This document shows, in pieces, positions 13,257-44,976 of a stretch of DNA of 64,000 nt; position 1 is the first letter of the stretch, and each line of letters opens with the position of its first letter. The position numbers and the translations under genes are program-made. Location of the stretch: NCBI GenBank assembly GCA_951213105.1, contig OX578136.1, positions 76,566,437 to 76,630,436 of the forward strand. The letters run 5' to 3'. The notes below the pieces were generated by a model. It had not been told where the DNA came from, did not search any database, and was given only the letters and a program-made list of their open reading frames with translations. This DNA is from Amaurobius ferox (Eukaryota > Arthropoda > Arachnida > Araneae > Amaurobiidae).

Positions 13257-13317
13257 TTCCCGGCCACACATATAGCTACAGTAAACCTTCTGGTCTGTCG
13301 TGTGGTCTGGGTTTTTG
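13257..13317 (+). mobile_element. 61-bp hairpin retroposon (copy D)
   Basis: A 61-bp insert between two perfect 15-bp target duplications, ACATATAAAGGGTTT at 13242-13256 and 13318-13332. It begins near CGGCCACACA and ends GTGTGGTCTGGGTTTTTG, resembling the last 60 bases of the SINEs at 33182, 46927 and 62292. The 5' arm GGCCACAC pairs with GTGTGGTC, allowing one G-U pair. There is no 5' head, no promoter boxes and no coding capacity. It could be an extreme 5' truncation of a SINE or LINE with this tail, or a mini-retroposon in its own right. Confidence 0.75.
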
Positions 13318-13494
13318 ACATATAAAGGGTTTAACTAATCACCCGCACCATCCCTGAATCGTAATTTCGCCGTCATTGCGGCTTCGCAACATAGGCCTGG
13401 CATTGAGATGTTTAGTGAACAAAAATTTCAAATAAATATTTTAAGAATATCCTTCTGTAAGCTCTTTTTTCGAAGCCAGTAACATTTTATGGTA

Positions 13495-13559
13495 TTTTAT
13501 TTAGGCCATACACCGTATGGCCTAAATAAAAACGGCCTAAATATTTTATTTAGGCCGTT
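13495..13559. repeat. Twin adjacent palindromes
   Basis: Arms of 17 bp (13495-13511 and 13515-13531) around a 3-bp spacer, followed directly by arms of 13 bp (13531-13543 and 13547-13559) around TTT. Both share the core ATTTAGGCC. Both are perfect and cruciform-prone, perhaps the ends of two abutting small foldback elements. Confidence 0.9.
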
Positions 13560-13852
13560 AACAAAATTCTAATCGCCCTGAATTAGTGTTTCTTTCAGAA
13601 TTTTTTGGTTAGGGAGGCGACTGACATGTTTGGGGGGGGGGGGGGGCAAGATTTCTATTTGCCTTATATGAATATATCTAAATGATGGGTCACACAAATA
13701 GAAACTAGGTTTCATAAAATGCCCGATGATTCATAAAATGCCTATAATAGATGTTATTCGCATCAATAGCAATCATAACGTTTCTTTAAAAAAAAAAGAA
13801 ACAATGTCATACACAACGGCCGAAATTCGGCATAAAGGTTAATCTACGCATA

Positions 13853-15300
13853 TACTGGCGTAAAATAAAATACCAACACCAAGAAGGAGATGTGATAGAT
13901 AAACGAAATTTGGGAGGCTCGTTTGCACATATGAAAGATGACTCCTATTCAAATTTCGAGCTAGACCAATAAAAGTGGCGCTAGCAGCGCCACTACGATC
14001 ATGCAAATCACGTTTGCTTTAAATACATGGTGTAAACTTCGTGAGCGCTATTTATCTTTCAGACTGGGCATTGTGAGCTAGGTTTGATTCAAGAATGCCT
14101 TCAAGGAAGCGAAGAAGGCAGTATCAGCAGCTTAGTGAGTTTGAACGAGGCCGTATAATAGGGCTACGAGAAGGTGGATTTTCTTTCCGGGATATTGCAG
14201 AAAGACTTGGCAGGGATGCATCAATGGATGTATCAATGCAGGGATGTGCATGATTGTTGGCAGTAGTGGTCACGGGAAGGCACTGTCTCAAGAAGATCAG
14301 AGTCCGGCCGGACACGGGCCACTACTGAGAGTGAAGAGCGCCGTATTCGCCTCATGGCTGTGGCGGATTGTACTGCATGAGCAGAAGCAATTAGAACTTC
14401 TGTTGGCCCTAGAGCGACACAGCGAACTGTAAGAAATCGATTACTTGAGGGACAGATCCGAGCCAGAAGGCCTGTAGCGTTCATACCACTAACTCCAAAT
14501 CACTGCCATCTGCGACGTCAGTGGTGTCAAGCTAGAGCTCATTGGAGAGCTGAGTGGAAATCTGTTACATTTTCAGGTGAGAGCCGTTTCTGTCTTGGTG
14601 CCAGAGATGGTCGTATGTTGGTAAGAACGAGGCCAGATGAACTCTTGGAGACACACTGGATCTACACAAGAGTTATGGTCTGGAGAGCCATTTCCTATGA
14701 CAGAAGGAGCACTCTCGTCGTTATTCCAAGCACCTTGACAGAAAATGTGTACATCAGACTGGTGATTGAACCGGTTGTGCTGCCATTCATTTGCAGTATT
14801 CAAGAGGGTGTTTCCAACAGGATCACGCATGTTCTCATACCGCTACTGTCACCCAACGTGCTCTGCAGAGTGTCGACATGTTGCCTTACCACATGTTGCC
14901 TTACGACATGTTGCCTTAGATTACGAGATTTTTCTCCCATCGAGCACGTATGGGACATTATTGGAGGACAAATCCAGCGCCATCCACAACCAGCATTAAC
15001 CGTTGTTGATTTAACTGACCAAGTGCAACAGACGTGGAATTCCATTCCACAAAATGACATACGGCACCTGTACGATACAGTGCATGCACGTTTGCATGCT
15101 TGAATTCAAAATCGTGGCTACTACAGAGGTTATTAATGTACCACCATTTCACATTCGAAATGGCTCTTCTCGCGCATACGTTAACCTTTGACCTTGAAAC
15201 TTTAATGAAATAAATATGTTACCTACACAATTGCTTTGCCTAAATTTCATTACTCTAAACTAATTTCTTCTTGGTGTTGGGATTTTATTTTCCGCATAAT
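13853..15300 (+). mobile_element. Tc1/mariner-type DNA transposon (inactive)
   Basis: A 25-bp inverted repeat with one mismatch, AATACCAACACCAAGAAG at the left (13862-13886) and its inverse at 15267-15291, brackets a transposase pseudogene. The outermost ends are degraded, so boundaries are approximate. A perfect 9+3+9 palindrome (13974-13994, GTGGCGCT core) sits in the 5' leader. Confidence 0.82.
14094..15103 (+). pseudogene. Tc1-type transposase pseudogene
   Basis: The start at 14094 opens a helix-turn-helix region (QLSEFERGRIIGLREGG, residues 13-29) typical of Tc1 transposases, which bind the inverted repeats. The frame is lost at about 14215 and resumes in another frame with in-frame stops. 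Recognisable blocks follow: a GRP(T)RATTE-like hinge, HCHLRRQWCQARAHW, FSGESRFC, MVWRAISYD, FQQDHA, and SPIEHVWDIIG. The first catalytic Asp of the DD34E triad is Gly (FSGESRF for FSDESRF); the second Asp (FQQD) and the Glu (SPIE) remain. A 15-bp segment reading DMLPY is triplicated at about 14875-14920 and breaks the frame again. Ends at 15103 with a conserved-looking C-terminus. Cannot encode active enzyme. Confidence 0.88.
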
Positions 15301-16680
15301 TATCTAATGTCTAAATTTTATAATAATTATCTAATGTGTTTGTGTTTTTTCAGACTCTACAGGCCGCCCCCTCCCCTCTGGTGATCCAGAGGACTAATAC
15401 TTTGCACACTTGTAGTAAACTTATAGTATCGAACACACTTATATGCACTTTAGTATTTATACGCTTAGTACACTTACATTACCGAAAACAGGAAAGAGTC
15501 TAATGTAGTCTTATTTTGATCCTTTCCCGCGACATCCAAGAGCGAATAAAATACTTTCTATGTCCTCCAAGAACATCCGAGGTGACTCAGGAAGCTAAAT
15601 TATTGCACAGTTGCAATATTGACCTTGGGTGGAAACTTAATAGAAATGAATTTTGATTTCCCCTTCAGGGGGCGTAAAATATGGGATGGTTTCGAAGACT
15701 TTGCAGACGTTCTAGAAGACCCCGGTGACCTAAAAGGCTCGTTGCACATTTATATTAATCACGAGCAAGAACCTAACATTGCTGAATTTTCGATTTCTTC
15801 CCCGGATGGGGGTGGAAAAGTGGTGGGTCGAAAAGTCCTTCCCTTTGCGTTCCGTTGTCTTTCCAGACCGTCTAGAAACCCTCTATAACGTAGAAGGCTT
15901 AATCTTAGTACACGTATAGTATTGTTAAGGTGTATCTTCTGGAATCGTGGGTGTGCGCTCAGGATACAAGAATGAGCCCAAATTTATAGATAACTAACAC
16001 GTTTATTCACAAGCACAGCATAAACAGGAATACTATGTAGTAAAACAGCACACATTTTCCATCCATTTCATAAAAAACTGATACGATTCTTGAAACATTG
16101 GAGTATTTTATTTCACAGACAACCACTAGTATTCTAAAAACATTGATGAAAATCACAGTTCAATGTAGCTTGTTGCATCACGTCAATTGTTCACCAATGG
16201 AGTGATGACTCTTTTTATAGACTCTACTAAAGAGTATGGTTATTTCGAAATGTTTCTCGACGCTTCGAAAAGTCGCCAAACTGGCGATAAATAGCTAAAT
16301 CTGGCAACTCTTCTTCGAACTTCATTATATGGAAACCCTAGATTTTCGTCACGGGAAAGGATGCAAGTATGTGTGTTTTCCCTGCCTAGACTTCGAAAGA
16401 AACGAAAATGGGAGGGTAGAAACGAGACCCCACGTCATTTTAAAATTTCGTAACAGTATTAAACATGTGGCAGAACCTAAGGATACTGGGTTTTTGATTC
16501 AAATAACAATTTACTACACTAAGCTCTGTATATTTTAAAGCAAAAATAAACACATTCGTAAGAAGTTGCAGGCTTATCTTATAAGACTGTTACGTTTTCC
16601 ATGTCTTTGACAACTGCAGACGTACGTATATGCCTTAATATTTGACAGCATATAAAACAAAAATACTTTCCCTGCCGTAG
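15301..16680. other. Unassigned sequence, one 89-codon frame
   Basis: Contains a frame from 15619 to 15888 (plus) that begins MTLGGNLIEMNF and is richer in G+C than its neighbours. No domain, signal peptide or homologous motif is apparent. The decamer CTTAGTACAC occurs on both sides (about 15464 and 15905). I regard it as unproven as a gene. Confidence 0.3.
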
Positions 16681-16682
16681 CT

Positions 16683-16870
16683 GTTGTTATTTATTTATAC
16701 TACGCTTTGCCCTCAGCATCTGGCGCCAAGAAATAATTCATAAATCTAGACACATTAAGTCGAAGGAACTTTAATCACAGACGTGTGCATTGTAAATGAG
16801 GGAAATAAAACAAAGAACAGGGGCATGACAGGACGAATTATTCATTTGTTAATGCATTATTTAAAATGTT
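16683..16870 (+). repeat. Dispersed repeat family 3, copy 1
   Basis: Shares ATCTGGCGCC, AGTCGAAGGAA, GTGCAT and GACA(T)GA blocks in order with 34205-34400, and more distantly with 20345-20535. No open frame. Nature unknown. Confidence 0.6.
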
Positions 16871-16907
16871 TTCGTAAGATCGTAAGTTTTCTGTTTTTTT
16901 CATTTTT

Positions 16908-18280: not shown

Positions 18281-18281
18281 G

Positions 18282-21061: not shown

Positions 21062-21066
21062 GCACG
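21062..21066. repeat. Target-site duplication GCACG (left)
   Basis: Perfect match to 31070-31074; five bases is usual for gypsy-type integrases. Confidence 0.95.
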
Positions 21067-21977
21067 TGTCATAAGGTAAAATTGTCCTTATCAAAAATTA
21101 CCTGTATAGGACTTACCTATGATGCCGCCACTAAGGGTGGAGCATGTAAGCTCCCGGTTCTCAAGCTCGGACTACGAACACACCAAAACATAAAGAAATA
21201 CACAAGCTTAATTGCTCAATTTATTTTAATATTTTACTTAATAGTTATCTATTGTATCTGGAGTAACTATGCTATAATTAAATCAATTATTAAAAGACAC
21301 ATAATACTAACAATATTACATTAATATATATATATATATTTACACACATTATAACTTTGACTTAAATTTCTTAAAAAACAGTTTCCTTTAAACAATCGAT
21401 AAAGAATAGTTCTTATAGTTCAATATTACGAACTCGTTCATATGGTCTACTCATACGAACTGGTAGTCAATTAATTTAATAATTGTTAAAGGTGTGCCTT
21501 CCGTGCTAATAGTGACAATTGAAAGTTGGTTACCTTTTCTCTTTGTGTTACGTGCATATTCGTGCTATTTCAATGATGTAGGAACACCGTTACACATCTA
21601 ACTGCACTCGCTACCATTTTGTTGCTCACATTCTATAGACACTTTTCACAAACCCAAGAAAACATGATGCTGACTCGTTCGAAAGTTTTAAGTCGACTAA
21701 AAAACCTCAGGTGCGTCTAGGACGCTGTCGAAATTGCATTCGTGGAAAGTTCTAGAACATTCTCTCAAACCTTTTTCTTTTCACATTGTAGTGTCGTTGT
21801 TGATTCGTTGAAGTGAAGAAGGGGATGCGCTGCTTATTTATGTTTGTATTGCCATTGGCTCCCTCCGCAGCATTTAAATAGCTCATTAGCTAGGTTGGCA
21901 TCCGCAATTGGAATTGCAAAATGGCTAGGTTGGCATCCGTAATTGGGTGTAACATGTAATACATATATTGTGTTACA
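21067..21977 (-). repeat. 3' LTR
   Basis: Left copy, the 3' LTR because the genes run on the minus strand. It has one additional TA pair in its TATATA stretch relative to the right LTR. The 80-codon plus-strand frame inside both LTRs is antisense and unlikely to be a gene. Confidence 0.96.
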
Positions 21978-21993
21978 TGATATCCCCCCTTGC
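21978..21993 (-). promoter_or_regulatory. Polypurine tract
   Basis: On the coding strand GCAAGGGGGGATATCA abuts the 3' LTR start (TGTAACAC). It is the expected primer site for plus-strand DNA synthesis, although ATATC interrupts the purines next to the LTR. Confidence 0.7.
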
Positions 21994-22269
21994 AGAGAGA
22001 AAATTTCAGCACACGGTAAACATTGCACTGAATACATATGTGTACACATTGCGGCCACTGTGGAAATGTTGCTTTGATCCACTGCACATATATCTGTCAC
22101 AGAAATGCAGATCACCGCATGTAAGACACATTATATTGTAACATTGACATACATATATCGGTGCATTACAACCGACATGTCAGTAAAATGAAGGAACTCA
22201 CTGTTCGGAAGATACACCATCGTACTTGGTAACACATATATTGGTGTACATGAAGAAATTATGACTGTT

Positions 22270-22434
22270 CGGAAGGCACACTATATTGTCACATGGAATT
22301 ATCACGAGCACGGAAGACACCTTATTGTCACATGTAATTATCATGAGCACGGAAGACACCTTATTGTCACATGGAATTATCATGAGCACGGAAGACACCT
22401 TATTGTCACATGGAATTATCATGAGCACGGAAGA
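22270..22434 (+). repeat. 39-bp minisatellite
   Basis: Units start CGGAAGACACCTTATTGTCA. One diverged 41-bp unit is followed by three near-identical 39-bp units (22311, 22350, 22389) and a partial one. As 39 is divisible by three, both strands show spurious repetitive frames. Confidence 0.92.
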
Positions 22435-24584
22435 ATGAGTCACCATCCTGTGACTTAACTTTCAAAGTTCCGGTACTTCAATATTTATATTTTCATTATG
22501 TTGCTTGTACACTTCAAATGAAGACTATCATAATTGTTATTTGCATTTCTATTTATATACAAGTTCACAACATTACATTAAAATATACGCAATTCATTAC
22601 CTTGATTTCTCATTTTCACAGACGTAAATAATTTTTAGACAATTTTTTAGCTGTATATATTTCTTATTTGTTACAATGAATAACATATTATATATTTCTG
22701 TGTGTATAAATCATGACTCTTTTGAACACCATATTTATATCATATTACATCTCGGCCTTTAAAATATCAAATATATCTACTCATTTCGCTACTCCAAACT
22801 ACTGTGCATCTCATAATACGCACTTTCAATTCCCTCTTCGACTGCCCTTTCGTGTGACACAACTGCGCGGGAGGAAGGGAGAAAAGAAAAAAAAGAAAAA
22901 ATTTTGCTTGACCCGTAGCTTTCCTCTGCTCCCCTCCATGCGTTTCTATGGCAACTGCGAATTTGTTGACCCCCACGGCGAGCCTTGAATGAGTGTCTTC
23001 ATTGTTTGCAGAGCGCAAACTTACGTAAAAGGGATTTTAACTGCCTTTTGCATGTATCGCTAAAGATTTAATCGTTATCGTGCAACTTTGGCGGTAACCT
23101 CTTCTCAAGCGCGGGCTTTTAGACTGTCCGGTGGTGAATGTACGAGCTAACATTGACGTGGGATTTTCTGGCTGTATCTTTTAAGGAATTTATTTACACT
23201 TTTTCTTTCAAGTTCTTTTTTTGTATTCTTACTTATATTTATTCTACTTATCTTGTTAATAATTCTATTTAATTTGATATATATATATATATATATTTTT
23301 ATTATTATTATCTTATGACCTTAACACAGATCTGATTGTTGAATTATTATTTTGATTTCATGTACTTTTAATTTATTGGATTTATTTATCCCTTGTTGCA
23401 ACAACGCGTGATATATTATTTTATGTGTAGTATTATGAATATACCATGCTTTTGTTATGTTATTGATATAACTGACTTTATGTTCCCGTTTCAGCATAAC
23501 TTTACATATTTATTTATTTAAATATATTCTTTCATATTTAATTTTATCTGTTATTTCTTTTTATTGCCAGTGATACTTAATTAATGCATTAATTTATTAA
23601 TAATACTCAATCATTTATCATTTACATACAAATCAATGTCTTTTCCTAATGTATTTTATTTTTATATACCGGCCGGTATTTTTAACTAACTATAATTGCC
23701 TGCAATTATAATTTTAAATTTTGATACATTGATTGTATGCTTACAATAGAACTTTTTTTTGTATTATTCACGTACTATGCAGGGGAGATTTTCTCCGATG
23801 TTTATTTTTAGCCTGGCTATTTATTTTGAAGGTGACTAGCTTTCGCCGTGCAATGGCCATATATGGAGCTGTTACGCTGACTGTGACAGCTGGGAAATTA
23901 ATCCTACTCATTCAAGTTTTATTAATCCATATATGTAATTAACTTTTATTTTGTTTTTTAGATTGCGTGTTTTCGTAAAAGGTCTGTATACACTATTTAT
24001 GCAATAAATATTTATTAATTTACTAATTATTATTTACATCAGCTGTGAGTGTTTATTTTGACTTAAAATTTTATTTATTTATTTATTTCTGATTTTGCTT
24101 TTATTCTGTCAGCTTTTTATGAGGTATTTGATTAATACTTTTATGATTTTGAATATTATATACTTGCATTTACCCTGTTCCATGACTTTATTTTGCATTT
24201 TATTAATTATGTTATACTATTTTTTCAAGACCCGTACTAGAAAAGGAAAAAAAAAAAAAATATCGTGAAGAATTCCATCCCACACATCTTTATCATTGGA
24301 ATGTCTACCTTGCTCTTAAGCATCTATCATTGGAAGACTTGTATTTTTGATGCCCACTACTGACTGTTACCACCTTTCGTTTTCAAGCAAGACAAATTGC
24401 AAGTAAGTGAAATTTAATTATCTCTCTCCTTTTTTTTTCTAACACCTTAGTTTATTTTATTTTAGAACATTGAGGGGTATTGTATGTATTATTTATCACT
24501 TCTACATATTTTTCTGATATTTATTGCTCTATTCATAAAATGTATCCATACATAAATGTTTATTTATTACCTATATTTTTATTT

Positions 24585-24715
24585 TATCCTCATATTTACA
24601 AAATCCTCATATTTACAAAAAAAATTATCCTCATATTAATTTTACAAATATGTTATTCTCATATTTATTTTACAAAATATATTATCCTCATATTTATTTT
24701 ACAAAACTACCTTTA
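24585..24715 (+). repeat. Tandem array, CCTCATATTTATTTTACAAAA unit
   Basis: Four to five imperfect units of about 25-30 bp with TCCTCATATTTA and TTTTACAAA in common. Confidence 0.75.
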
Positions 24716-24851
24716 TTTCATTATTAATTTTTTTAAAATTATACATTTAATGCCTTCATTACCGTTACACTAATATAACATATTTTGCGTTTTCGCACAT
24801 AAAATTTTCATATTAAATTTTTATCATTATATATTATTTTGCTTTCGAATA

Positions 24852-25457
24852 CTATTTTTTGCGTGTCCTTAGATTATAACGTCTAGTACTCCCATCATTT
24901 GGATTATTGGCGTTATATTCTTTGTTTACATGCGATTGACTTCTGTCAACAGTTCGCCGTGTTTGTTTACTTTGTAAATACTTTTTACGCGGCTCTGCTT
25001 TATATAATTTATTCGCGTGAACAACTATCCATTTTTTATTTGGATCGTTCATAGGTGTGATAGCGTAATTATTGTTACGGATCACCTTTACGATGCGATA
25101 TGGCCCTTGAAATTTTTTTTGTAATGCTGTGGTGGGTCTCAGGTTTTTTAAGTACACAATTTGTCCTTTTAATAATTTCTGCTGTCTAACTCTTTTAAAA
25201 ATTCTTTCTTGGCGACTTTGGGCTTGAATTTGTTTTCGTTTTGTATATCTATTAATTTTTTCCGCTAAAGTAAGTGCTTCACTGACGTCATTATCATATT
25301 CAGTTTTAGTTAAATTCGGACTGTCATCAGGGTCCGCTATTTCCAGATTATTTTCTCCGGGTAATTTCAAATCTCTGGTAAGAAACAAAATAGCGGGACT
25401 GTGGTCTATATTTGCGCTGGGTGTTGCATTATGAAATAATTTTACATATGGCAAGAC
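24852..25457 (-). pseudogene. gypsy pol: integrase C-terminal region
   Basis: About 200 residues in a third frame after a shift near 25455-25465. Carries the GPYR signature (residues 117-120, then IVKVIRNNNYAI), the GPY/F module found at integrase C-termini in Ty3/gypsy elements. It ends in a basic tail (RRYNLRTRKK). No chromodomain is recognised. It would be continuous with the 25429-26472 frame in an intact element; the junction (after QTFNWQS) requires +1 or -2 nt, so the copy is broken or mis-sequenced here. Confidence 0.88.
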
Positions 25458-26472
25458 TTTGCCAATTAAAAGTTTGGTCAGCCATTGCTGCCAAAGAATT
25501 TTTTATTCCTAAGTGGCTTCTTTCTAAAATTGCATTTGAGCTAGGTTTGTAAATAGACGTATATTTTATTTTTATATCATGTTGCTCTGCGAATTTTTTA
25601 AATTCTTCGCTTTTTAGTTGTCTCACGTTATCACATAAAATCCAATTTGGTACTCCGTTTGAAGCTATCCAATTTGTTACTACCTGTAATATACTCGCAG
25701 TTGTAATATTTCTCACGGGTACTGCCTCCAGGAATCTCGAGTAATGGTCTATCATCGTTATGATGTACTCATGTTGTCCGTTACTTCTCGGTAGCTTCCC
25801 TACAATGTCTAATGCCACTGTGTGATTTTGTTTACATGGACGAGGGACACGTTGTAATGCCATAGGTCTTATAGCCTTATTTTTGTAACATAAACATGCA
25901 TCACATGATGCGCAAAAATTTTTTACATCACTGTATGCTCCTTTCCAGTAATATTTTCTATTCAGAATTTGATAGGTTTTTTCTACTCCAAAATGCGGTG
26001 TATGAGCTAACTCGATAACTGCGAATTTTAGACTGTGAGGTATTAGAATTCTGTCCTTTTGCATAGGATTTCTGATATTTCTAGCAGTCTTTATCATAAT
26101 TAATCCTGTATTTACATCTCTATAGTATTTATTTACATATTTTGGCTGTTTAAATTTTGCATTCAGTCCGTTAATAATTTTCTTTATCTCTCTATCTTTT
26201 GCTTGCTCTTCCAAAATTTTGGCTATCGTTATCGCGCTGTCATTAGCAATAATGTTATTTATTAATTTAGTCTTAGTTTGTTGAGAAAAAATTTGTCGCG
26301 ACATAAAATCACTGGGATTATCTTGTCCTTTAATGTATTTTATGTCAAAAGAATATTGTTGTAAATTTAATAACCATCTTGCGATTAAATCAGAATTTTG
26401 ATTTTCTAAGTGTATGTAGTGAGTTAAAGCTTTAGAATCAGTAAATACCGTAAAATGCGTACCATATAAAAA
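25429..26472 (-). pseudogene. gypsy pol: RNase H C-terminus and integrase
   Basis: From the shift at about 26472 the frame reads the end of RNase H (FTDSKAL, with its third Asp) and a connection, then integrase, which joins element cDNA to host DNA. Counted from the first Met (26304): zinc-binding H101, H104, C131 and C134, then catalytic D166 (VALDIVG), D225 (ILCDNVRQ) and E261 (NAILERSH). Exactly 35 residues lie between D225 and E261, giving DD35E. The usual DN-G after the second Asp is DNV here, and the two His are closer than usual. The frame ends early after QTFNWQS by a second shift. Confidence 0.92.
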
Positions 26473-28689
26473 TCTTTGAAATGTATTATAGCGTCGTGAA
26501 TTGCTAACAATTCTAGCTTCATGCTCGGATATTTCTTTTCACTGTCTGAAAGTTTCCTGCTATAATACTCGATAGGATGAAAATTTCCATTCACTGATTG
26601 AAGTAAAATTCCTGACGCGGCTACTTTTGAACAATCAGTCGACAAAAAGAACGGCTTTGACATATCAGCTGCTTTGACTACCGGTTTCGATAAAATCGCG
26701 TTTTGCAATGTTACAAACGCTTCTTCGCATTTCTCCGTCCATATAAATTTCTTATCCTTCTTTGTTAACTCAATTAATGGATTGCATAGTTCAGAAAAAT
26801 TTGGTATGATCTGCCTAAAATAATTACATAAACCTAAAAATGATTTTACTTTTTTTACTGTCGTTGGCACAGGGAAATTCGTTATTTTTTGTACATTATC
26901 ATCTGAAGGTGTTATGCCTTCCTTACTTATCTTAAATCCTAGAAATTTAATGTTCTCTTTACACATTTGTAATTTTGAAGGGTCAATGGTTAAACCAAAT
27001 TTACCTAATCTCGAAAATACCGTTTTTAATTTCTCCAACATTTTCTCGAATGAATTTGCGGCAATTACAATATCATCTAAATAAAATTCAATTTTCTGAT
27101 CTTTTAAATCTCCTAAGCATTTCATCATTAGTAATGAGAAATATGCTGATGAGTTTTTTGCCCCAAAAGGTAATCTATTAGGTCTATATGAGCCATCATT
27201 TGTTATGATATTTAATCGGAAACTATCCTCCGGTTTGATTTTTATTTGGAAAAACGCGGACTTTAAGTCTATCACCGTGTACAAATTGTGGCCTGCGATG
27301 TTGTGCAGAATGTCGCTGATTTTACCAATATTTACGGGCAGTAATTCAGTAATTTGATTAAGTAGCCTATAATCTACGGCTAAACGATATTTTTGTTCTT
27401 TATTGGCATCATTACTATTAATACTGGCTTTCTTCTTTATCAATAAGCATGGGAACGCATAATTACTTGTAGATTTTTCTATAATTCCAGCTTCACACAA
27501 TTGTTTGATTTCACCTTCTAGTACAGGTTTTAACATTTTTGGCAAGGGATAAGGTTTACACTGAATTGGGTATTGGTGTAGTAAATTAAATTCCGGTACT
27601 ATTTCTTCTGTCATTACCAGCGTTTTGTATGATTTCGCAAATACATCATAATTTTGTAACAGTAATTTTAGCAATATATGTTTTTCATTTTCTTGTAAGT
27701 GATCTAGTTTAAAATCTTGCGGTGTTAATTCCGCTTTTCGTAACGCTGAAATGTCCATTTTTTGTGGATCATTTAAGCTTTCGATATTGTTAATCTGTAA
27801 AATTTTATCAGTATCATGTTTCTCTTCACAGATTTCAAACTGCGGTGTTACAGTACCAAATATCATATTTTTATTTAGATGAATCTCTTCTTCTGTTTTA
27901 TTTGTTATTATAGTAGAAATATATTTTCTATTATTTACATAATGTATAGAATTTTGAGTATGTAAATCTTTCATTGAGTTTGAAATATTTAACAATACAT
28001 CCTTATCTTCAAAATAATTTTCGCTTAATTTTAATTTTATTGATTTTGTTTCTTGAGGGAGTAATTTAATTTTATGCGCTAAGCTTGCATTTAAGCATTG
28101 AATATGTTCAACTCTTGTATTATTATTTTCTGGTTGCTGTGCTTTTTTCTGATTTTTGTCTCGAAATGGTATAGATATGGATTCTTTGACAAATTTTAAT
28201 ATTAATTTATTTGTGTCAATTATGGCATGATGATTTTTGAGAAAATCAAATCCTAAAATAATTTCATAAGGGGTGTTATTTAATTGTTTAGTTATGAAAA
28301 AAGAATTTTTGCATCTTTTGTTTTCAATTTTAAAGCTAAAGCTGATACATTTTGAAAATTGAATGTTTTCTTTGGTCATAGTCTGTATTTTTACTTGTCT
28401 AGATAAATAGTTAATTTTAATTTTATTTTTTATTTTTTGAAAAATTCTATCTGATAATAAACTGACACTTGCGCCACTATCTATGAGAGCCACTGTTTTT
28501 ATTTTCTCTAAATTTATGTTAATCATTGGCAATGCGTCACTCTGTCCATATGTTGAATTCAGTAAATGTTCATTTAAATTTTGTGCATCCTTATTAATTT
28601 TGCTTGCAATTTTATGGGATCTCGAATCCTTATTTGATGCCTTATAACTTTCTATATGTCTTTTATTTCGAGGTCCCTTTCTTAGTTTA
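26424..28689 (-). pseudogene. gypsy pol: protease, reverse transcriptase, RNase H N-terminus
   Basis: Open from the gag end in the -1 frame, with no stop through 28532, where the first usable start-like codon (TTG) lies, to 26424. Numbered from 28532: aspartic protease active site DSGAS at 18-22 with IILGFDFL at 91-98; RT motif A with D422 (VIDLKSAFFQ), PFGAKNS near 455, and catalytic YLDD at 484-487; tether; RNase H with D633 (STDCS) and E674. It converts the genomic RNA to DNA and processes the polyprotein. A one-base loss near 26472-26476, just after HF in the RNase H domain, sends it into a short false tail ending at 26424. Confidence 0.94.
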
Positions 28690-29812
28690 AATATTCATTA
28701 TTCTGATATTGTCTATGATTGCTTTCATAATGTGGTCCATTATTCTGATATGATCTTCTGTTATTACTTTGAAATTGTCTGTTGTTATTTCCTGCACGCC
28801 GCCGTATTCCCCGGTTATTTATGAAATTACCTCTTCTGAAATTCGCCCTACTATAGTGTGCATAATTATTTTGAATAGTGGGTCTTTGTTGAAAATTGGT
28901 AGTTTCCTGAATGTTATTTCCATTTGTCATCGCCCTTTTTAAATTGTCTTGTACTTTATGAAGCATATAGCATTCGGACATCCAGTGATTGTTACGACCA
29001 CACGCTATACAGAATTTCTGTGGCGGGTTTTCTGCAGTATTTTCCGTTTTTACATGATTTATTTCCAGATTCTCACTTATTTTATTTTCTACATCAATAC
29101 TATTTACACAATCATTTTGTTCCTCCAATGCGGATTCTATTACTTCAGCTATTCTCACTGCTTCCTCAAAAGTTTTCGGATCATTTTTTTTTATTTCTGT
29201 TCTTAAATCTTCTCTAACTATCTGTAAAAATTTGGTGAGTTTAATTTTCTCTGTAATTTTTTTTATATTTGCGTCCATTGTTTCATCTACTTCTAGAAAA
29301 ATTATCGCCTGGTTTTCGATTTCTTGTGCAAGCTCCTTAATTGTCATATTTGGTAAATGTTTCAGATTGTTAAAATTGTTGTGTTTTTGCACTAATGTTT
29401 GTTTCCTTTCAAATTTGTTTTTTAATAACTCCATGAATTTTTCATATGATTTTTCCTTTTGCAGGGCAATATTTTCTGCTAGAAATTGTTGAGCCTTTCC
29501 TTTTAATCTTGATTTGACAATTATAATTTTCTCTTGTTCGGACCATGATGTTAACTCCGCTATTTCCTTAAATTGTATGATAAAGAAATTGACATTATTT
29601 TCCTTTTGTCCATCAAATGATGGCAACATCTGCATAATTGGCAACGATGTATTTTGCTGCGCTTGATTTGCGGGCATCTGTATCTTGATCGCGTTATTTA
29701 CCGAACTATCTGTTACTCTGTTATTTATATGTACCTCCTGCTGTATATTATCGATAATTGGAGCATCTTGCCTCGATCTTTTACTTATTTGCCTAGTTTT
29801 ATTCGGCGCCAT
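28682..29812 (-). CDS. gag: gypsy gag polyprotein
   Basis: 376 residues, intact from ATG at 29812 to the stop at 28682. Assembles the virus-like particle and packages the RNA. A retrotransposon-gag region spans roughly 60-230, with MLPSFDGQ at 62-69 and LKGKAQQFL at 103-111. A single zinc knuckle C268-C271-H276-C281 (CX2CX4HX4C) follows, then an Arg/Asn-rich tail likely to bind nucleic acid. The 5' leader from the LTR is about 350 bp. The last sense codons are TTA AAC next to TAA (see the slippery site). Codon use is A/T-rich like the rest of the element. Confidence 0.93.
   Translation of the reverse strand: MAPNKTRQISKRSRQDAPIIDNIQQEVHINNRVTDSSVNNAIKIQMPANQAQQNTSLPIMQMLPSFDGQKENNVNFFIIQFKEIAELTSWSEQEKIIIVKSRLKGKAQQFLAENIALQKEKSYEKFMELLKNKFERKQTLVQKHNNFNNLKHLPNMTIKELAQEIENQAIIFLEVDETMDANIKKITEKIKLTKFLQIVREDLRTEIKKNDPKTFEEAVRIAEVIESALEEQNDCVNSIDVENKISENLEINHVKTENTAENPPQKFCIACGRNNHWMSECYMLHKVQDNLKRAMTNGNNIQETTNFQQRPTIQNNYAHYSRANFRRGNFINNRGIRRRAGNNNRQFQSNNRRSYQNNGPHYESNHRQYQNNEYLN
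28685..28691 (-). promoter_or_regulatory. Putative -1 frameshift slippery site T TTA AAC
   Basis: On the coding strand the heptamer TTTAAAC is in the gag phase T TTA AAC and directly precedes the gag TAA. A -1 slip reads TTT AAA and continues into the open pol frame, bypassing the stop. The phase and position are exactly those of known -1 sites. No strong downstream stem was obvious by eye. Confidence 0.65.
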
Positions 29813-30124
29813 GATTTAATACACTGTTATACAATTCTGACTCTATATTAAATATTTATGCTAATACATACATATATATATACAATCATATAATACATAT
29901 TTAAATTATCATTTTCATGCATTTTCTTATCATTCTACTGAGTTATATCTCATTATTAAATTCATTGTTAAATTCAATATTACATTCCACTTATTATTAA
30001 ATTCACTTTTATATTCAAACTCATTATTAAATTTAATATTATATTCAAACTCATTATTAAATTTAATTTTGCCTTTTACTTATATATTTTACTTTCTCTT
30101 ATGAAAATTAATTCTCCCCGAGCT

Positions 30125-30142
30125 TGACCACATACGGCACCA
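30125..30142 (-). promoter_or_regulatory. Candidate primer-binding site
   Basis: On the coding strand TGGTGCCGTATGTGGTC starts 18 nt after the 5' LTR. TGG matches the CCA end of a tRNA and GGTGCCGT resembles PBS sequences. The 18-nt gap is unusually large, and the tRNA was not identified. Confidence 0.4.
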
Positions 30143-30160
30143 ATTCGCGCGGCGACATCA

Positions 30161-31069
30161 TGTCATAAGGTAAAATTGTCCTTATCAAAAATTACCTGTA
30201 TAGGACTTACCTATGATGTCGCCACTAAGGGTGGAGCATGTAAGCTCCCGGTTCTCAAGCTCGGACTACGAACACACCAAAACATAAAGAAATACACAAG
30301 CTTAATTGCTCAATTTATTTTAATATTTTACTTAATAGTTATCTATTGTATCTGGAGTAACTATGCTATAATTAAATCAATTATTAAAAGACACATAATA
30401 CTAACAATATTACATTAATATATATATATATTTACACACATTATAACTTTGACTTAAATTTCTTAAAAAACAGTTTCCTTTAAACAATCGATAAAGAATA
30501 GTTCTTATAGTTCAATATTACGAACTCGTTCATTTGGTCTACTCATACGAACTGGTAGTCAATTAATTTAATAATTGTTAAAGGTGTGCCTTCCGTGCTA
30601 ATAGTGACAATTGAAAGTTGGTTACCTTTTCTCTTTGTGTTACGTGCATATTCGTGCTATTTCAATGATGTAGGAACACCGTTACACATCTAACTGCACT
30701 CGCTACCATTTTGTTGCTCACATTCTATAGACACTTTTCACAAACCCAAGAAAACATGATGCTGATTCGTTCGAAAGTTTTAAGTCGACTAAAAAACCTC
30801 AGGTGCGTCTAGGACGCTGTCGAAATTGCATTCGTGGAAAGTTCTAGAACATTCTCTCAAACCTTTTTCTTTTCACATTGTAGTGTCGTTGTTGATTCGT
30901 TGAAGTGAAGAAGGGGATGCGCTGCTTATTTATGTTTGTATTGCCATTGGCTCCCTCCGCAGCATTTAAATAGCTCATTAGCTAGGTTGGCATCCGCAAT
31001 TGGAATTGCAAAATGGCTAGGTTGGCATCCGTAATTGGGTGTAACATGTAATACAAATATTGTGTTACA
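30161..31069 (-). repeat. 5' LTR
   Basis: Right copy; would carry the promoter. Boundaries are fixed by LTR-LTR identity and by the GCACG duplication just outside. Confidence 0.96.
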
Positions 31070-31074: not shown

Positions 31075-31516
31075 CATGCATTTTGCAGAAATCTCGAATT
31101 ATAGAGAATCGCTGATAATTTATTTGCTAAAATTACGATTTAAAATGTGAAAAAGCTTGATAATTTTATATTTATGGAAAGATAGAATAATCTTCAGAAC
31201 AAGGATAAAAGTATAATATGTGATCTAATCTATACGGGAAAATAATACATAGAGTCATATACTCTATACGGGGTGATTAAAAAAAGATGGACCAAACTTT
31301 ACGAAGTGGTAATATACACCATACCAATCATTTGTCGTCAGAGTTTACCGGATCGGAAATGAAACAGAAAGGCGCTAGTGGGCGCTTAATGGTGAAACCG
31401 ATGAGATGAGGCGAAAATACAAGAATGACTTAGAAGTTATAAAATGACATGTAATAAACAATAATTACAATAATGGCTCAAAAGCAATGGCTTGGATTCG
31501 CTGGAGATAGTATGGG

Positions 31517-31576
31517 TGGAAGACCCAAACCGCTCGACTGACCTTAAGGTTTGCAGTAGTCGTTTGAGTGGCCGAC
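31517..31576 (-). mobile_element. 60-bp hairpin retroposon (copy G)
   Basis: Minus-strand copy: CGGCCACTCAAACG at the start, GAGCGGTTTGGGTCTTCC at the end. Flanked by imperfect target duplications GAGATAGTATGGG (31504-31516) and GAGATGGTAGGG (31577-31588). The arms GGCCACTC and GAGCGGTT pair with G-U pairs and one mismatch. Confidence 0.65.
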
Positions 31577-31588
31577 GAGATGGTAGGG

Positions 31589-31628
31589 TCGAAAACCCAG
31601 ACCACCCGACTCGCCCTAGGCCACGAGC
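31589..31628 (-). mobile_element. Truncated hairpin retroposon (copy H)
   Basis: On the minus strand AGGGCGAGTCGGGTGGTCTG and a closing TTTTCGACC closely match the 3' part of copy F at 44916. The 5' arm is missing. Directly adjoins copy G, head to tail. Confidence 0.6.
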
Positions 31629-32289
31629 ACTGTTCTCCATGCAGAACCCACCACACGGTGGATTGTGGCACACCAAGAGTTTGCTTCATTTGCTATTGTG
31701 CTTGTGTCTGGCTGAACTGCTACTGTGTCCAATATTGCCTGTTCCACGCTTGACGTTCTAGCACACCTTGCACAACCTGCATCATGCCTGGTAGCAAGAA
31801 AGGATCCTGATTTACAGAGCTGCTGATGCAAGCGTTCGCATGTTTTTCAATTGAGCAACCGCCTACAGAGAAAACGTTCTCCGTGTAGTTGTTGTGTCTC
31901 TCTGCCATTCCCGTTTGCAGCTCCACAGATGAAATGCATATCGGCTGTTTACCTATTTGTAATGTCCTCCATCATCTCAAAAGTTGAAGCTGCAAATAAC
32001 TGCTACGAACTGGTAAAACTATACTTTAGGTGTTACGAAAATTTGCATAAGGGTTCTTCGTCTTCCCGAGATGGAATGTGCATATGTGGTGTTCTTCTTC
32101 AACCAGGAAATAACAATCTGAATGAGTTAAGTTTACGGAGCGGACGCTTCCCAATGAGTAAGGTCCTGTAACTCATTTACATTTAATTTCCGATCATGTA
32201 TACTATGACGAAAAATGCTGGATTTGGTGTATACTATCCCCTCTTAAAGTTTGGCCTATCTTGTTTTAATCACCCTATACATTTAAAGG

Positions 32290-33168
32290 ATATAAAAAAT
32301 AATATTTATAACAATAAATTATCTTTATGTAGAAACTTTATAAAATTGTCTGTCCAGTTGACAACTCAAAAACATATTTAAAGATATCGATTATATATGT
32401 AAATTGTGAAATGTGGAAGCATGGATGCAGTCGAGTTGAGATAAGTTGCGTGGAGTTAAACGCATTTCATTAGCTTGCCCTGTTGCATTCAAATTTGTGA
32501 TTGATTTGTAATCCAATTTTGCCGATGTTCAATTGACTTGAAACATTGCATAATTTTGTATTCCTGATGACAATACGATATTCCGTCAAATTTGAGCTGA
32601 CCCACTTCATTCCCCTTCTTCTCCCGGGTTATTATATTATCAAAACTCCCTAGAAAAAACTCTATCAACAAATACGCGTATACGTGAAACTGTTTTAGTG
32701 ATAATAGATCAAATAGTCAGGTTTGAGTTCATTCCTCCCAATTTTTCACATTGTCAAAAATCACAAATATGGGTGTCTAATTTAAGGGGAGTGATGGCTC
32801 AAAGTTCAAGTCTCACATGAGCTATATATTTTTTGAAAATTAAGATTTATATACAGGTTTTATTTGTCTTGTGGTCAAATGTTTCGACACAGTTTGTAAG
32901 TATCGCTGTGATAAATTTTGCCATGATCTTATATAAGTTGGGTACACACGATATTGACTTAAAGTGCTTGGGTCTAATAGGCGATTTGGTCTTACGTAGC
33001 AGGTATGTAGCGTGGTGTAGAATCATTCGAATCATTCTTCCGGTGATATCTCTCTACTTATGATCTTCTTTATTTCTTTCACTATAAAATGATGTAAAAA
33101 CAGAAATTTATTTTCAAAATTCACTAAAATGGAGAAAATAAATTTTTTAGTATTAAAAAATTGTTCAT
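32290..33168. other. No gene recognised
   Basis: A+T-rich. A 76-codon frame at 32833-33063 has no support. Confidence 0.55.
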
Positions 33169-33181
33169 ACATAAATGACTA

Positions 33182-33469
33182 AGGGCGCGGTAGTCCAGTG
33201 GTTAGCGCACGGGAATTGCACTCGGTAGGCCCGAGTTCGATTCCCGCCACTGCCCAAACTGCCACCGTGTTCACGCGGAGTACGATCACGTTAACCATGT
33301 GGGTGCGTAAGTCCTGCCGAGAGGTTGGTGGTAGGGGAAGGAGGGTACGGTCCCTGTCGATGCCTCCTCCACTGGGTTCCGGTCTAAATTGGGTGGCACT
33401 TCCCGGCCGTCCAAACAGTTACCTTACACCCTTCCGGTAGGTCGGACGGTCGGGGTCTCAAGAATAATA
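33182..33469 (+). mobile_element. tRNA-headed SINE (copy A)
   Basis: 288 bp between target duplications ACATAAATGACTA (33169-33181) and ACATAAATAACTA (33470-33482). The head, to about 33256, is tRNA-like, with A box TAGTCCAGTGG and B box GAGTTCGATTCCC for RNA polymerase III. The body (about 33265-33400) contains GTTCACGCGGAGTACGATCA and GAGAGGTTGGTGGTAGGGGA. The last 60 bp form the hairpin tail ending GGTCGGGGTCTCAAGAA. Moves only with LINE machinery in trans. Confidence 0.9.
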
Positions 33470-33482
33470 ACATAAATAACTA

Positions 33483-34400: not shown

Positions 34401-34429
34401 ATGCAAGTTCTCTTGTTTCTACCACACGC

Positions 34430-38040: not shown

Positions 38041-38287
38041 ATAATAATTGTGAGAAAATGTGTAATTTTCATTGCGTTTCTTTTTAAATTCATTTGTGTT
38101 TTACTGTAAAAGGTACTAATAACTTTAATGTTTTGTCGTAGTAATGCTTTTTCTTTTCGCATATCATATTATCTGGATCAGTTTTATTATATGTTATATT
38201 GTGCATATTATACATTTAAAACACTGATATGTTACATTTGCAAAAATATAATATATAAGTGAGCCGAAATAAAGTCATATGTGGTGA

Positions 38288-38346
38288 CGGCCACACAACT
38301 TGTTACCATAAACCCCTGGGTTGGTCGTGTGGTCTGGGTCTTCAAC
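38288..38346 (+). mobile_element. 59-bp hairpin retroposon (copy E)
   Basis: Flanked by perfect 12-bp duplications CATATGTGGTGA (38276-38287, 38347-38358). Starts CGGCCACACAACTTG and ends GTGTGGTCTGGGTCTTCAAC. The 5' arm GGCCACAC pairs with GTGTGGTC. Aligns along its whole length with the SINE tails, with the stem bases changed together. Confidence 0.8.
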
Positions 38347-38989
38347 CATATGTGGTGAAATAAATTAAATGCCAATGTTTATATTTTAAATGTATAGCGA
38401 CTACGGCGTACATTGCATTTGCTGGCAATAACCCTTCAAATTTACCTCAATAGTGCGAGTTAACTTACTGTACTGTAAGACATGGGTCATTAACCACAAA
38501 GTTTATCTTTTAAATTATATATTGATTTGTGTGGCACTCAATTATTAAAATACATTTTCAACTAATACTTTGTACAATGACCATTAATGTAATATATTTT
38601 GAGAAATGATTTAGGGGTTGATTTGAGACCGGTAATAACTACTGGACATATTAAAGCATCTGCGCTCTACCTAATTGTAAATCTATGTTGTTGGCACTTA
38701 CCTTCGCTTTATGTACACTGCATTAACCGGAATGGTTTTTAAAAATCATTTGTTGTAAGTATTTTATATTTTAATGTATTTATTCATTTGCAGGTGCTTT
38801 CAAGAATCATTTGTTGTCAATAGTTTGCATTTTAATGTATTTTATTATATTTTAATCTGTATATTCTGCATTCTGTTTTATCTTCCACACTGTTACTGGG
38901 ACTTTGTCCTTTAGAGTGCAATCTTTTAAAATAAATAAATAAATACATACATAAATTAAATGTAATGATCGTTGGCTTGAGATGGGTAC

Positions 38990-39310: not shown

Positions 39311-39319
39311 ATCTTAATT

Positions 39320-40380: not shown

Positions 40381-40381
40381 T

Positions 40382-41188: not shown

Positions 41189-41713
41189 TATTATAAAAAT
41201 ATATACTACCTTTAAATGTTTGTTCTGATTTGCCACTAGTACGTATGAATTGATTAGTTTGTAAGAAGTCAGCTAGTTTTCTATAAAAGCATAACTTTTG
41301 TTCACAATAATAAGCAACTTTTAAAAGAATGAGAACTTAAATTTCAAATACCAAATGAAAAATTAAAGGAGAAAGAAAGTTCTTGTATTTTTACAGCGTT
41401 TTTTGTCAAGTATTAGAAATGGCCTAGTTTTTAGTTGTTTAATTATTTATGGCATTTTGAAATTCAGTGGATAAAAAAGGGAAAAAAATATGCTCTAGAG
41501 AAACAGTTGTTTTGAAAACACACTCTTTTCATTACTGTCATGTCTATGTCTATTTCTATTTTTTGCTAATGCGACAACAATGCATCAGAAACTTGTAAAA
41601 AACAGCTCTTTGTCATTCAATTGCTTGAAACGATATTATTTAAGTAGGTACTTAAATATTTTTATGTGAAAACGCATTTCATATGTTAATAAAAAATACA
41701 TTTCCTAAAAATT

Positions 41714-42488
41714 AAAAATCTGATGTGGGCAGCACATGACTTTCTCTGCAGACTTATATCCGCGTTCTCTGTTTATTTTAATAAAATTTATTTCACTTTT
41801 ATTCCATTTTCGTTCTCATTCGGTAACCGAGTTATTTTCAAAAGTGGCGTAGAGAAAGTACGAAAAACTAAAATATCTCGAGAACGGCTAGTTCTAGTGT
41901 AATGGTGTTGGTCTTATTCTTTTCGTCCTTAAAATTTACGTATTAAACGGACATTTAATGGATATATCTGAGTATATATAGTTCTTTAGTTTAGATTTTG
42001 ACGATTTTTGCGGGCCATTTTGCAAAAAAAGGCAGGTTATTTTTTTCCGAATCGTACCAAAATCTAATCAACACCAGGGTAACCCAAAAGTGACTTATCC
42101 ACCGAATTTTGTGAAGTTTGGTCCATTAGTTCTTCAGTTAGAGTGGATACAAGATTTTGCGGGCCATTTCGCAGAAAAAGGCGGGTTCTTTTATCCCGAA
42201 TCATACCCAAAACTAATCAGCACCAGACTCGCTCACAAGTAACTTACCTACCAAATTTTGTGAAATTCGGTTCATTAGTTTTTTAGTTAGAGTGGATACA
42301 AAATCTGCACAGACTGACACACAGACAGACACACAGACACACAGACACACACACAGACGTCACGCTAAAAATGGTTTTTTCGTATTCTAGAGGTCTCGAA
42401 ACGTGTAGATCCGTCGAAAACTCGAGTTGCGATTTTCGGCATGATTCCAATACTTTCCCTATACATTACCATGTATTGCAGGGAAAGT
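41714..42488 (-). mobile_element. ACTTTCC repeat family, subfamily 1 (copy 4)
   Basis: Inverted relative to copy 3, about 525 bp away. Left edge AAAAATCTGATGTGGGCAGC; right edge is a hairpin TTTCCCTATACATTACCATG with the return arm ending GGGAAAGT. An ACAC/CAGA microsatellite lies at 42305-42357. The two interior repeats hold AAATTTTGTGAA and CAGCACCAG. Confidence 0.75.
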
Positions 42489-42607
42489 AAAAAATAATAT
42501 ATAAGATATGTTTTTCAGGATAGCTTTAATTTTCATGCAATATACAATATATATGCACAGTAATTCAACGGTTTATATGAAACTTGTGTTTATTTAAAGT
42601 CAATGGA

Positions 42608-42770
42608 AATTTTAAAAACTCATTTAAGACAACTCATTTAAGACAGCTATTATAACTAATCATAAAACTCATTTAAGACAGCTATTATAACTAATCATAA
42701 AACTCATTTAAGACTGCTATTATAACTAATCATAAAACTCATTTAAGACAACTATTTAATACAATTCATT
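42608..42770 (+). repeat. 35-bp tandem array
   Basis: Units AACTCATTTAAGACAGCTAT... at 42631, 42666, 42701 and 42736, nearly identical, with a partial unit before the first. Confidence 0.92.
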
Positions 42771-44900
42771 AAATAATTTCGTATTTAATCCATTCGTATT
42801 TTATTCATTCTGTATTTAATATAATTTAGTATATAAAATAACACCTCTTCCCGTGTATGGCTAGTTGTACAGAATCGATGATTACTGAATCCTAAGCTGA
42901 TGATTCAGCAAAATCATTTGAGTGGTACTATATAAAATTTTTTACAAATACTGATGTAGGAAATTTTAGCACATTAAACATGTAAATTGGAAATTATTCT
43001 AATTATTTTGAATACTTAACTTCAACAATGTTTGAAACATTAACAGTTTTGACTAAGGGTCAAGTTGAACAAACAGTTTTAGATTGAAGAATAAAACAAT
43101 AAAAGATTAAAAGGAGTAGAGTTAAATAAAAAAATCCTGCAAGACTGAAAAATGGTGGATCGTAAAGTAAATACACTTAAAGAGTGAGAAGAAATTTAAG
43201 GGCCTGGATCAACTGCATATCCTAACGGGAAAAGTTGAACAGCATGACTAAAATTATTCCTGCGAAGGAATTAAAAGTATTCCTCAGCTTGAATCAGCAT
43301 GATTTGTTATTTACTTGATATAAGGTGGGTTCATATTCCAATTTGCTACGTGCTTAGACTGCATTGAACTACGCATGTAGTCATCCTTTAAAGGTGACTG
43401 ACAAAACTAAGTCAGCTTTGACTTTATTGAATTGAAGAAATATCAAGAATTTTCATTTGAGCCACTGGAATTATCAATTGCATCACAAAGTTTCCGTGTT
43501 TGTTGTTACCTAAATAGATAAGTTTTAAATTTCCAGTTCCATTTTAATATTCTGAGACGTTAAACATGGAATACTGCTGAACCATTGCTTTTTTATTATG
43601 GCATATTTAAGACATTTGAGAAATGTTGGTTCCATGTTTAATGAGTTATATACGGACTCACAACGACTGTATTTGTGTTAAAAAATAGACAACTTTAATG
43701 TGAGGTTATTAAAGAATTTAGACAAGTGTTATTCCAAAAATCTGGTGGTAACCCTTCACTTGTTCAATAGAGTGCCCCGATAAGCCGGTATAGGGAGTTT
43801 TGAAAAAAATGTCTTTAGTTAAAGACTAATATTTCCATAATATCTCAAAATATGTATTGTATCAAACGTTTCATGTTCGATGGACATTTTTTATACTTTT
43901 CATGTGTTATAGAGAATTCTGTAAATTATTGAAAAAACGTGCAGTAGATATAGGCGTTTGTTTACGCTCAAACTACATGCCCAACGGTTTTCTTCTCGAC
44001 ATTGATGCCTTGTACGTATTAAATTATATAACTTTTGAAAGTTAAGAAATAATATTAAAATGTAACCATAAAATCAAAATAAATATTTCAAAGTATTTTG
44101 TTATATTTCGTAAAATTTATATTTAGGGGTTTAAACTCTATGTAAACCTTATGGAGCGGCTACATAATTTTTAAAAATCGATACAATTTCATATTATTTA
44201 TGGACTATTTCGTAATGTGCATATAAATGTATTTTCAGTTAAGTAAGTAATATAATTAATTTGCAATGTGCAATGAGACACAAAATGTACAGTGAGGTAA
44301 CTTCAAATTAGGTAATTATTATACTGTTTCCCAGTTGATTTAAGATCGCAATTGGACACTGAATTTAAAGCAGTACAATTTTCTACTGTGGTAATTATAA
44401 CCCGTAAGAAATCTGACTACACACAGTTGGATACCTTGCAGATATGCTTCGATAAGATTTTACCAGAAAAATCTTGTTTGAAAATTGTAAAAGGAAATCT
44501 AATGTTCTACAATTATCTCAATTTTACAATTACCAACAATTTTCATTCGTTTTCACAAAACATCTGAACATTTTAATTTTGCTTAATTAACATCATAATT
44601 TTTACATAAAAATCTAAACAGGGACCCAGTTACAGTTGTAAATAAGTCAAGTAAGTTCTGAAAGATGGTACATACCTAGAGCTATGGAAGTAAGGTTTCG
44701 GTATAGTAAAGTGACCAGACGTTACAAGAGGAAATTAATGACAGCGCTCCTAGAGGTAAAATTCTCAAATTATTATTTCTATTTCGTAAACTATGAGATA
44801 TACAGGAAGAAATTAGAAATGTTTGAAGCATTACCAAAAACGTAGGGGAACGTTAATTCATTTACTACAAAAACGGCATTTGCATAACGTAAATTTTTAT
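42771..44900. other. No gene recognised
   Basis: A+T-rich with short chance frames (for example 43857-44045 and 44352-44567). No conserved motif. Confidence 0.55.
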
Positions 44901-44915
44901 ACAAAAGTATTCTAT

Positions 44916-44976
44916 TCTGGTCGTCTAAACAGCTGCGCATGTCTAAGGGCGAGTCGGACGGTCTAGGTTTTCGACC
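44916..44976 (+). mobile_element. 61-bp hairpin retroposon (copy F)
   Basis: Flanked by perfect 12-bp duplications AAAGTATTCTAT (44904-44915, 44977-44988). Starts TCTGGTCGTCTAAACAG and ends GGACGGTCTAGGTTTTCGACC. GGTCGTCT pairs with GGACGGTC using three G-U pairs. Closest relative is copy H at 31589. Confidence 0.8.

Follow-up and report, generated by a model that had tools for sequence, protein, structure and literature searches.

Among the long interspersed nuclear elements (LINEs) of the R1 clade, Waldo and Mino have microsatellite-like targets. In LINEs of the stringent type, UnaL2, ZfL2-1 and ZfL2-2, a 3' stem-loop is common to the LINE and a short interspersed nuclear element (SINE) and is bound by the LINE protein (PMC4176376). 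In mammals, tailless retropseudogenes are insertions of short small-RNA fragments that carry target duplications and end at defined positions related to the structure of the RNA; they rely on the relaxed L1, and their preferential 3' end points are attributed there to internal priming (PMC5322556). We looked at stand-alone hairpin inserts of about 60 bp in a 64,000-nucleotide stretch of the genome of the spider Amaurobius ferox (contig OX578136.1, positions 76,566,437 to 76,630,436; the window). With a probability that we put at roughly 0.7, these inserts are solo 3' tails of R1-type LINEs, whose recognition hairpin would have been retroposed alone from a discrete RNA of about 61 nt.

As in UnaL2, ZfL2-1 and ZfL2-2, the 3' stem-loop is present on a LINE and on SINEs; here, by contrast, the LINE is of the R1 type and its tail is inserted alone, en masse and at a nearly fixed length. 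With Waldo and Mino our LINE shares an R1-type open reading frame 2 (ORF2), judged by the nearest protein names, and an AC-rich target, but the target here is short, a TTTAC|ACAC-like motif found at dispersed sites. The tailless retropseudogenes are alike in being short insertions with target duplications and structure-related end points, whereas in our copies it is the 5' end that is fixed, the 3' end belongs to the LINE, and the hairpin on the RNA would be that of the LINE itself. Compared with 5S- and tRNA-derived SINEs, those of the window carry a related 3' hairpin, and the stand-alone copies are without head, body and (CAA)n tail. Among the open-licence papers searched, as judged by titles and abstract openings, no description of a LINE tail that was amplified on its own as a unit of about 61 bp came up.

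Stand-alone hairpins in the window and hairpins at LINE ends

An earlier note on this sequence had reported inserts at 13257, 38288, 44916 and, on the minus strand, 31517, the first three with perfect target duplications. All four were found at these places, and the three duplications match throughout, while that of the fourth insert (CCCTACCATCTC against CCATACTATCTC) is mismatched. When the flanks were mispaired as a control for the scoring of duplications in the window, a score of 10 was reached in 4/390 cases. The copies and their duplications are as follows.

13242..13256, +, 5' target duplication of copy a, ACATATAAAGGGTTT (15/15 match)
13257..13317, +, stand-alone hairpin copy a, ACAC/GTGT stem, 55/60 (92%) identity with the subfamily B LINE tail
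13318..13332, +, 3' target duplication of copy a (15/15 match)
38276..38287, +, 5' target duplication of copy b, CATATGTGGTGA (12/12 match)
38288..38346, +, stand-alone hairpin copy b, ACAC/GTGT stem
38347..38358, +, 3' target duplication of copy b (12/12 match)
44904..44915, +, 5' target duplication of copy c, AAAGTATTCTAT (12/12 match)
44916..44976, +, stand-alone hairpin copy c, GTCT/GGAC stem
44977..44988, +, 3' target duplication of copy c (12/12 match)
31517..31576, -, stand-alone hairpin copy d, ACTC/GAGC stem with one A.C mismatch, imperfect duplication, adjoining copy e
31587..31629, -, copy e, 5'-truncated tail of the stand-alone type, own duplication not recognised

Copies d and e are a same-site pair with CTACCATCTC between them. 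A hidden Markov model (HMM) made from the four copies matched the SINE tails of the window, copy e next to d and, at 62233, a SINE tail that is truncated; copy e (31587-31629, minus strand) and this SINE tail (62233-62279) were absent from the list of the earlier note. A covariance model built from 19 copies matched at 13260-13320 (+), 38287-38347 (+), 44917-44976 (+) and 31515-31575 (-) with E <= 4.1e-15, which is no independent test since these four copies were among the 19. No Rfam match above the gathering score was obtained at the stand-alone copies of the window.

The hairpin was then found at the end of a LINE. In one randomly drawn stretch of the genome (L010), a LINE insertion of about 5.3 kb is flanked by a 13-bp duplication (CACTCACATCCCG), and the hairpin forms its 3' end exactly. 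Its reading frames contain interruptions, and it may lack sequence at the 5' end. Pfam matches to Exo_endo_phos_2 and RVT_1 lie in one open frame and a match to RNase_H in a downstream piece; the best protein match (55%) is unnamed, and the closest matches that have a name are spider proteins labelled R1. By these names and by its endonuclease and reverse transcriptase (RT) domains, we take the parent LINE to be of the R1 type. It is inserted within another LINE. This second, different LINE (L010, reverse complement 1447-3456 and 8730-9999) has an endonuclease domain and was split, apparently between ORF1 and ORF2, by the hairpin-ending one.

A search with the LINE C-terminus gave 13,390 candidates, of which 150 were scored; 20 of the 150, picked for spread and long open frames, were inspected, and the hairpin was present behind ORF2 in 20/20. 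The upstream junction was seen in 19 loci (L010 and 18 fetched), all of which end at the hairpin. Three loci (L112-L114) look like one duplicated insertion, and the LINE tail there is 93 bp long. A look at LINE 3' ends, which the earlier note had suggested, thus located the hairpin at the ends of R1-type LINE subfamilies. Such an end consists of a covarying hairpin of about 52 nt followed by about 10 nt (..TTCAACA in the L010 LINE), a conserved terminal stem-loop as in the tails of stringent-type LINEs. Subfamily B ends in GGCCACACACTTAGCTACAGTAAACCTTCGGGTCTGTCGTGTGGTCTGGGTTTTCAACA, mostly plus CTTCAACA; subfamily C continues with ..TTCACACTCACAC; the short repeat added behind the hairpin in B and C is CTTCAACA or CACACT-like. 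The hairpins differ among LINE subfamilies and copy a closely resembles B, in agreement with the proposal that the free copies derive from different parents. The 3' end is therefore shared with a LINE of the same genome, with only a similar LINE tail seen for copies b, c and d. At C19:86695233-86706712, four LINE C-terminus matches of equal score lie about 3.7 kb apart, perhaps as a tandem array, and the first of them has a subfamily C tail (L198).

Length, number and target sites of the copies

To define the family in the genome (3.56 Gb in 276 contigs), we used a 17-base 3' anchor that puts no constraint on length. It has 607 exact genome matches, and the reversed control has none. A sample of 71 copies was taken from the listed single sites on C1-C3 with 240 bp upstream, not chosen by length; it leaves out the L001-L004 sites and an array on C2, and in close pairs one member served as the anchor. 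Four segmental duplicates (L030, L046, L087, L090) were dropped, leaving 67 distinct copies; L033 and L090 are duplicates, and L075, L081 and L095 have a common upstream SINE and are not. A duplication was called clear at a score of at least 10, and length was counted before the shared AC[A/C]. Clear duplications were present in 53/67 copies, and 40 of these 53 measure 56-63 bp, with 5 at 33-52 bp and 8 at 67-194 bp; of the eight longer ones, four (L039, L047, L069, L097) have a neighbour upstream and form same-site clusters. We also sampled copies identical to the hairpin of the LINE. Within 3 mismatches of this hairpin, 416 hairpins were found in the genome, against 19 LINE junctions, a ratio that is rough because two different search patterns were used. 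The 100 hairpins listed among the 416 are all identical to that of the LINE over 46/46 bases, and two of them (C13:1676565 and C15:9868042) are LINE junctions. For the first 39 of the 100, duplications were found in 38/39, and 34 of the 38 copies measure 56-63 bp. Mispaired controls reached a score of 10 in 2/419 cases for the 17-mer sample and 2/305 for the LINE-identical one. Both samples therefore have the variable-length duplications expected of a retroposon mobilised by a LINE, and they lack the broad length spread expected of randomly 5'-truncated LINEs. The earlier note had drawn attention to a recurrent length near 60 bp and had named a smooth continuum of truncations, or stem changes that do not compensate, as signs to the contrary; neither sign appeared in these samples of copies, where the peak near 60 bp stood out.

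To estimate the number of copies, we used the first 20 of 160 stretches of 10 kb, from a seeded draw on parts of 13 of the 276 contigs. They contain 8 stand-alone copies, CAA-tailed copies and the LINE-attached one of L010 excluded. The covariance model recovered 8/8 with E < 1e-6, though 7/8 had been used to build it; with an HMM made from other copies, the E values were 5e-14 to 3e-5 for 7/8 and 0.013 for the eighth. Extrapolated to the genome, this makes about 140,000 copies (Poisson 95% about 60,000-280,000).

The stand-alone unit has target duplications of about 10-16 bp at scattered TTTAC|ACAC-like sites. In 38 LINE-identical copies, the target is a T-rich stretch followed by AC|ACAC: the duplication starts with A (37), C (38), A (36) and then C (22), and is preceded by C in 27 and A in 20, the shared AC being assignable to the element or to the target. 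One target repeat is filled in L007, L075, L089 and L139; it is empty in L009 (twice), L019 and L027. In 20/110 copies, another hairpin or SINE tail ends within 30 bp upstream, and in four arrays (L002, L100, L158, L191) the members are separated by copies of one duplication. The ..ACC/ACA of the tail resembles the target, so that the 3' junction would remain insertable; because it stays a target, members would re-insert at the same site and build arrays. A tail that restores the target at its own 3' junction is the simplest account of these arrays.

Several clusters were looked at individually. L100 (C2:82322000-82323800) consists of 71-bp units in tandem, of which 20 contain the 17-base anchor exactly and about 3 are variants; every unit is made up of a hairpin and a constant 12-bp target duplication, and the whole is a satellite-like retroposon array. 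In L158 (C14:20984349-20984920), hairpins of the GTCC and ACAC types alternate with one duplication between them and a period of 144 bp. L191:270-642 holds a subfamily B LINE tail and then four more hairpins, with near-identical CACTATTCCCAAG between all. Head-to-head palindromic hairpin copies with inverted flanks were seen in L079 and L009:88-138.

Structure of the hairpin

When 19 copies were folded together by RNAalifold, unaided, a single hairpin of three stacked helices was obtained. In its outermost pairs, the first CC meets the GG that follows the 3' arm, which places the 5' end of the element at the hairpin base. Of the 5' junctions measured in 81 copies (duplicates kept), 59 begin within 2 bp of this CC, as do 26/36 of those of LINE-identical copies. 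In a set of 67 copies (63 distinct), 94.7% of the cells pair, against 86.6% after shuffling; 11 pairs vary on both sides, and compensatory cells with both sides changed number 91 against 27.5. These values were reached in 0/500 shuffles, which take no account of the relatedness of copies. With slid partners, pairing dropped to 24-52%. The main stem classes are ACTC, ATTC, ACAC and GTCC, each with a matching 3' arm, and two of them separate the LINE subfamilies, with ACAC in B and GTCC in the others seen. The view that the paired arms change together under selection for an RNA structure is thus supported by recurrent compensatory changes. The stems listed in the earlier note do covary, but the one at 31517 has an A.C mismatch.

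Folding of single sequences was set aside as weak evidence of structure (z from +0.1 to -2.5). Against shuffles, copy a gave a z of -2.5, copy b -0.5, copy c 0.1 and copy d -0.9, and the minimum-energy folds of c and d differ from the consensus; three LINE tails folded singly adopt the consensus structure (z -1.4 to -1.8). The claim of a structure rests on covariation across copies, since among the window copies the single fold is clearly stable for that at 13257 only. It is plausible, from the sequences, that the hairpin serves as the recognition signal of the LINE RT.

Proposed template RNA, SINE control and other explanations

In the mechanism that we propose, the LINE protein would recognise the RNA by its hairpin and nick the target. 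The nicked 3' end, ..GTGT, would pair with the terminal ..AC[A/C] on the RNA, after which nothing but the hairpin would be copied, movement by target-primed reverse transcription being suggested by the anatomy of the copies. The sharp 5' end would come from a discrete short template, either a piece of RNA that was cleaved or protected at the base of the hairpin or a separately made transcript.

The SINEs of the window are as follows.

33161..33470, +, tRNA-headed SINE, related 3' hairpin at 33403-33463, A/C-rich (CAA-like) tail
46928..47314, +, 5S-rRNA-headed SINE, related 3' hairpin at 47247-47307, (CAA)n tail, duplication ACACCTACTAAACTT
62233..62279, +, 5'-truncated SINE tail, duplication TAAGTATCTTC, adjoining the SINE at 62293
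62293..62674, +, 5S-rRNA-headed SINE, related 3' hairpin at 62607-62667

Two of the three SINEs have a 5S rRNA head (Rfam) and one a tRNA-like head; the body and the related hairpin are common to them. The head of those at 46928-47314 and 62293-62674 is composite, with 5S rRNA followed by a tRNA-like segment and then the body as in the SINE at 33161. An exact 26-base tail of these composite SINEs has 47,706 genome matches, and its reversed control none. The earlier note had aligned the free copies end to end with these SINE tails, which does not hold: behind GGGTCTC the SINEs continue with (CAA)n or a degenerate version, and the free copies end in TTYNAC[A/C]. They are not tails of the window's SINEs; R1-type LINE subfamilies carry a matching hairpin at their 3' end. 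A SINE origin of the free copies was rejected on the differing tail and stems and on the LINEs with matching termini.

The control set of 19 distinct SINE copies contains 12 of full length and 7 whose truncation points scatter, 1 of these 7 being truncated at the hairpin base; for 2 of the 7, the duplication scores are low (8 and 9). Six further truncated SINEs measure 34, 44, 54, 60, 100 and 102 bp, and the one of 60 bp (L023), which has an internal deletion, also begins near the hairpin base. These SINEs have a similar hairpin base and upstream CTTC. A discrete short template is favoured because SINEs with a similar hairpin base and targets truncate at scattered points, and a stop at the base that is intrinsic to the enzyme should show more in them.

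Such a stop is the core of another explanation, in which full-length LINE RNA is the template and the LINE RT regularly stops just after it has copied the hairpin, the 61-bp copies being abortive insertions. The listed hairpins identical to that of the LINE would agree with it, and so would the LINE bases found upstream of the hairpin in 2/36 copies, but only 1/19 SINEs end at the base. Moreover, the RT reaches the 3' arm first, and a block by structure would be unexpected right after the 5' arm. An intermediate LINE length was seen in 0/110 sampled copies when compared with 39 pieces of LINE 3' untranslated region (UTR), the 93-bp LINE tail being found elsewhere: at E 1e-3, no upstream sequence of the 110 matched any piece, although 39/39 pieces found another piece as a positive control. 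We regard this explanation as rather doubtful. The 61-bp unit could also be a minimal SINE, transcribed and retroposed from its own copies with the LINE protein as the only help. Stand-alone copies appear to outnumber LINE-attached ones by roughly 20:1 in one subfamily (416 against 19), and many stem variants stand alone, several with no LINE partner seen, which means little as only 20 of the 150 scored LINE matches were inspected. On the other hand, the young subfamily is identical to LINE tails, and no RNA polymerase III (Pol III) promoter was recognised by eye, no dedicated promoter search having been made; nor does the unit, a hairpin plus a short 3' end, have a Pol III-type head (tRNA, 5S or 7SL). 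Self-propagation is a possibility that we entertain tentatively. The same tentative standing goes to its broader form, in which a 61-nt hairpin that holds just the signal for recognition and priming by an R1-type LINE has become a replicating lineage, estimated at ~10^5 copies, which evolves its own stems by compensation and regenerates its target into arrays. Such an element, for which no promoter is known, would perhaps be the smallest of retroposons. Random 5' truncation of the ordinary kind, in LINEs or SINEs, would leave pieces such as the copies of 33-52 bp, the 93-bp LINE tail and the SINE fragments, but the spike at 61 bp is present in two samples, one of them without length constraint, and ruled this out as a general account; we give it very little credence. 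A foldback DNA transposon or satellite is hardly credible at all: inverted arms, tandem arrays (L100, L158) and palindromic loci (L009, L079) recall one, but the duplications vary, the 3' end is fixed, 5'-truncated copies occur, a LINE has the identical terminus and a similar target, and the arms are imperfect RNA-type pairs with G.U. It was rejected on the variable duplications and the fixed 3' end.

Several observations weigh against solo LINE tails made from a short RNA. In the 17-mer sample, 14/67 copies have no duplication that clears a score of 10, and five are shorter, at 33-52 bp; the 46-mer sample can only show copies at least as long as the hairpin. Among LINE-type copies, 10/36 begin more than 2 bp from the hairpin base, and 2/36 bear 4-5 extra bases (CTTC, TCTTC) that are LINE sequence upstream of the hairpin and look as if copied from a longer RNA. 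Repeating the UTR search with dust off at E 0.01 gave three short weak matches (L051, L062, L092), none adjoining the hairpin. Copies b, c and d have no close match among the LINE tails seen (80, 75 and 72% identity with the best). The SINE control is small (n=19) and has a different tail, (CAA)n, because of which these SINEs may depend on another LINE subfamily. Finally, the template of about 61 nt is one that we infer from DNA copies only.

If the retroposition of solo tails is true, the natural copies reveal what a LINE needs in cis, a hairpin of about 52 nt plus about 10 nt, and suggest how little RNA a LINE-type element needs for jumping. One tail is represented by at least 100 natural insertions that are nearly identical, and there are several subfamilies with covarying stems, so that the co-evolution of LINE and tail, the choice of target and the effects of template ends become directly testable. 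The insertions also suggest an origin for same-site arrays, in an element that rebuilds its own target. Should the unit replicate on its own, it could redefine how small a retroposon can be.

Elsewhere in the window, a stretch resembling a long terminal repeat element (21067-30717) has, on the minus strand, long frames that resemble gag and pol; its end repeats are 99-100% alike over the parts compared, and it looks recent.

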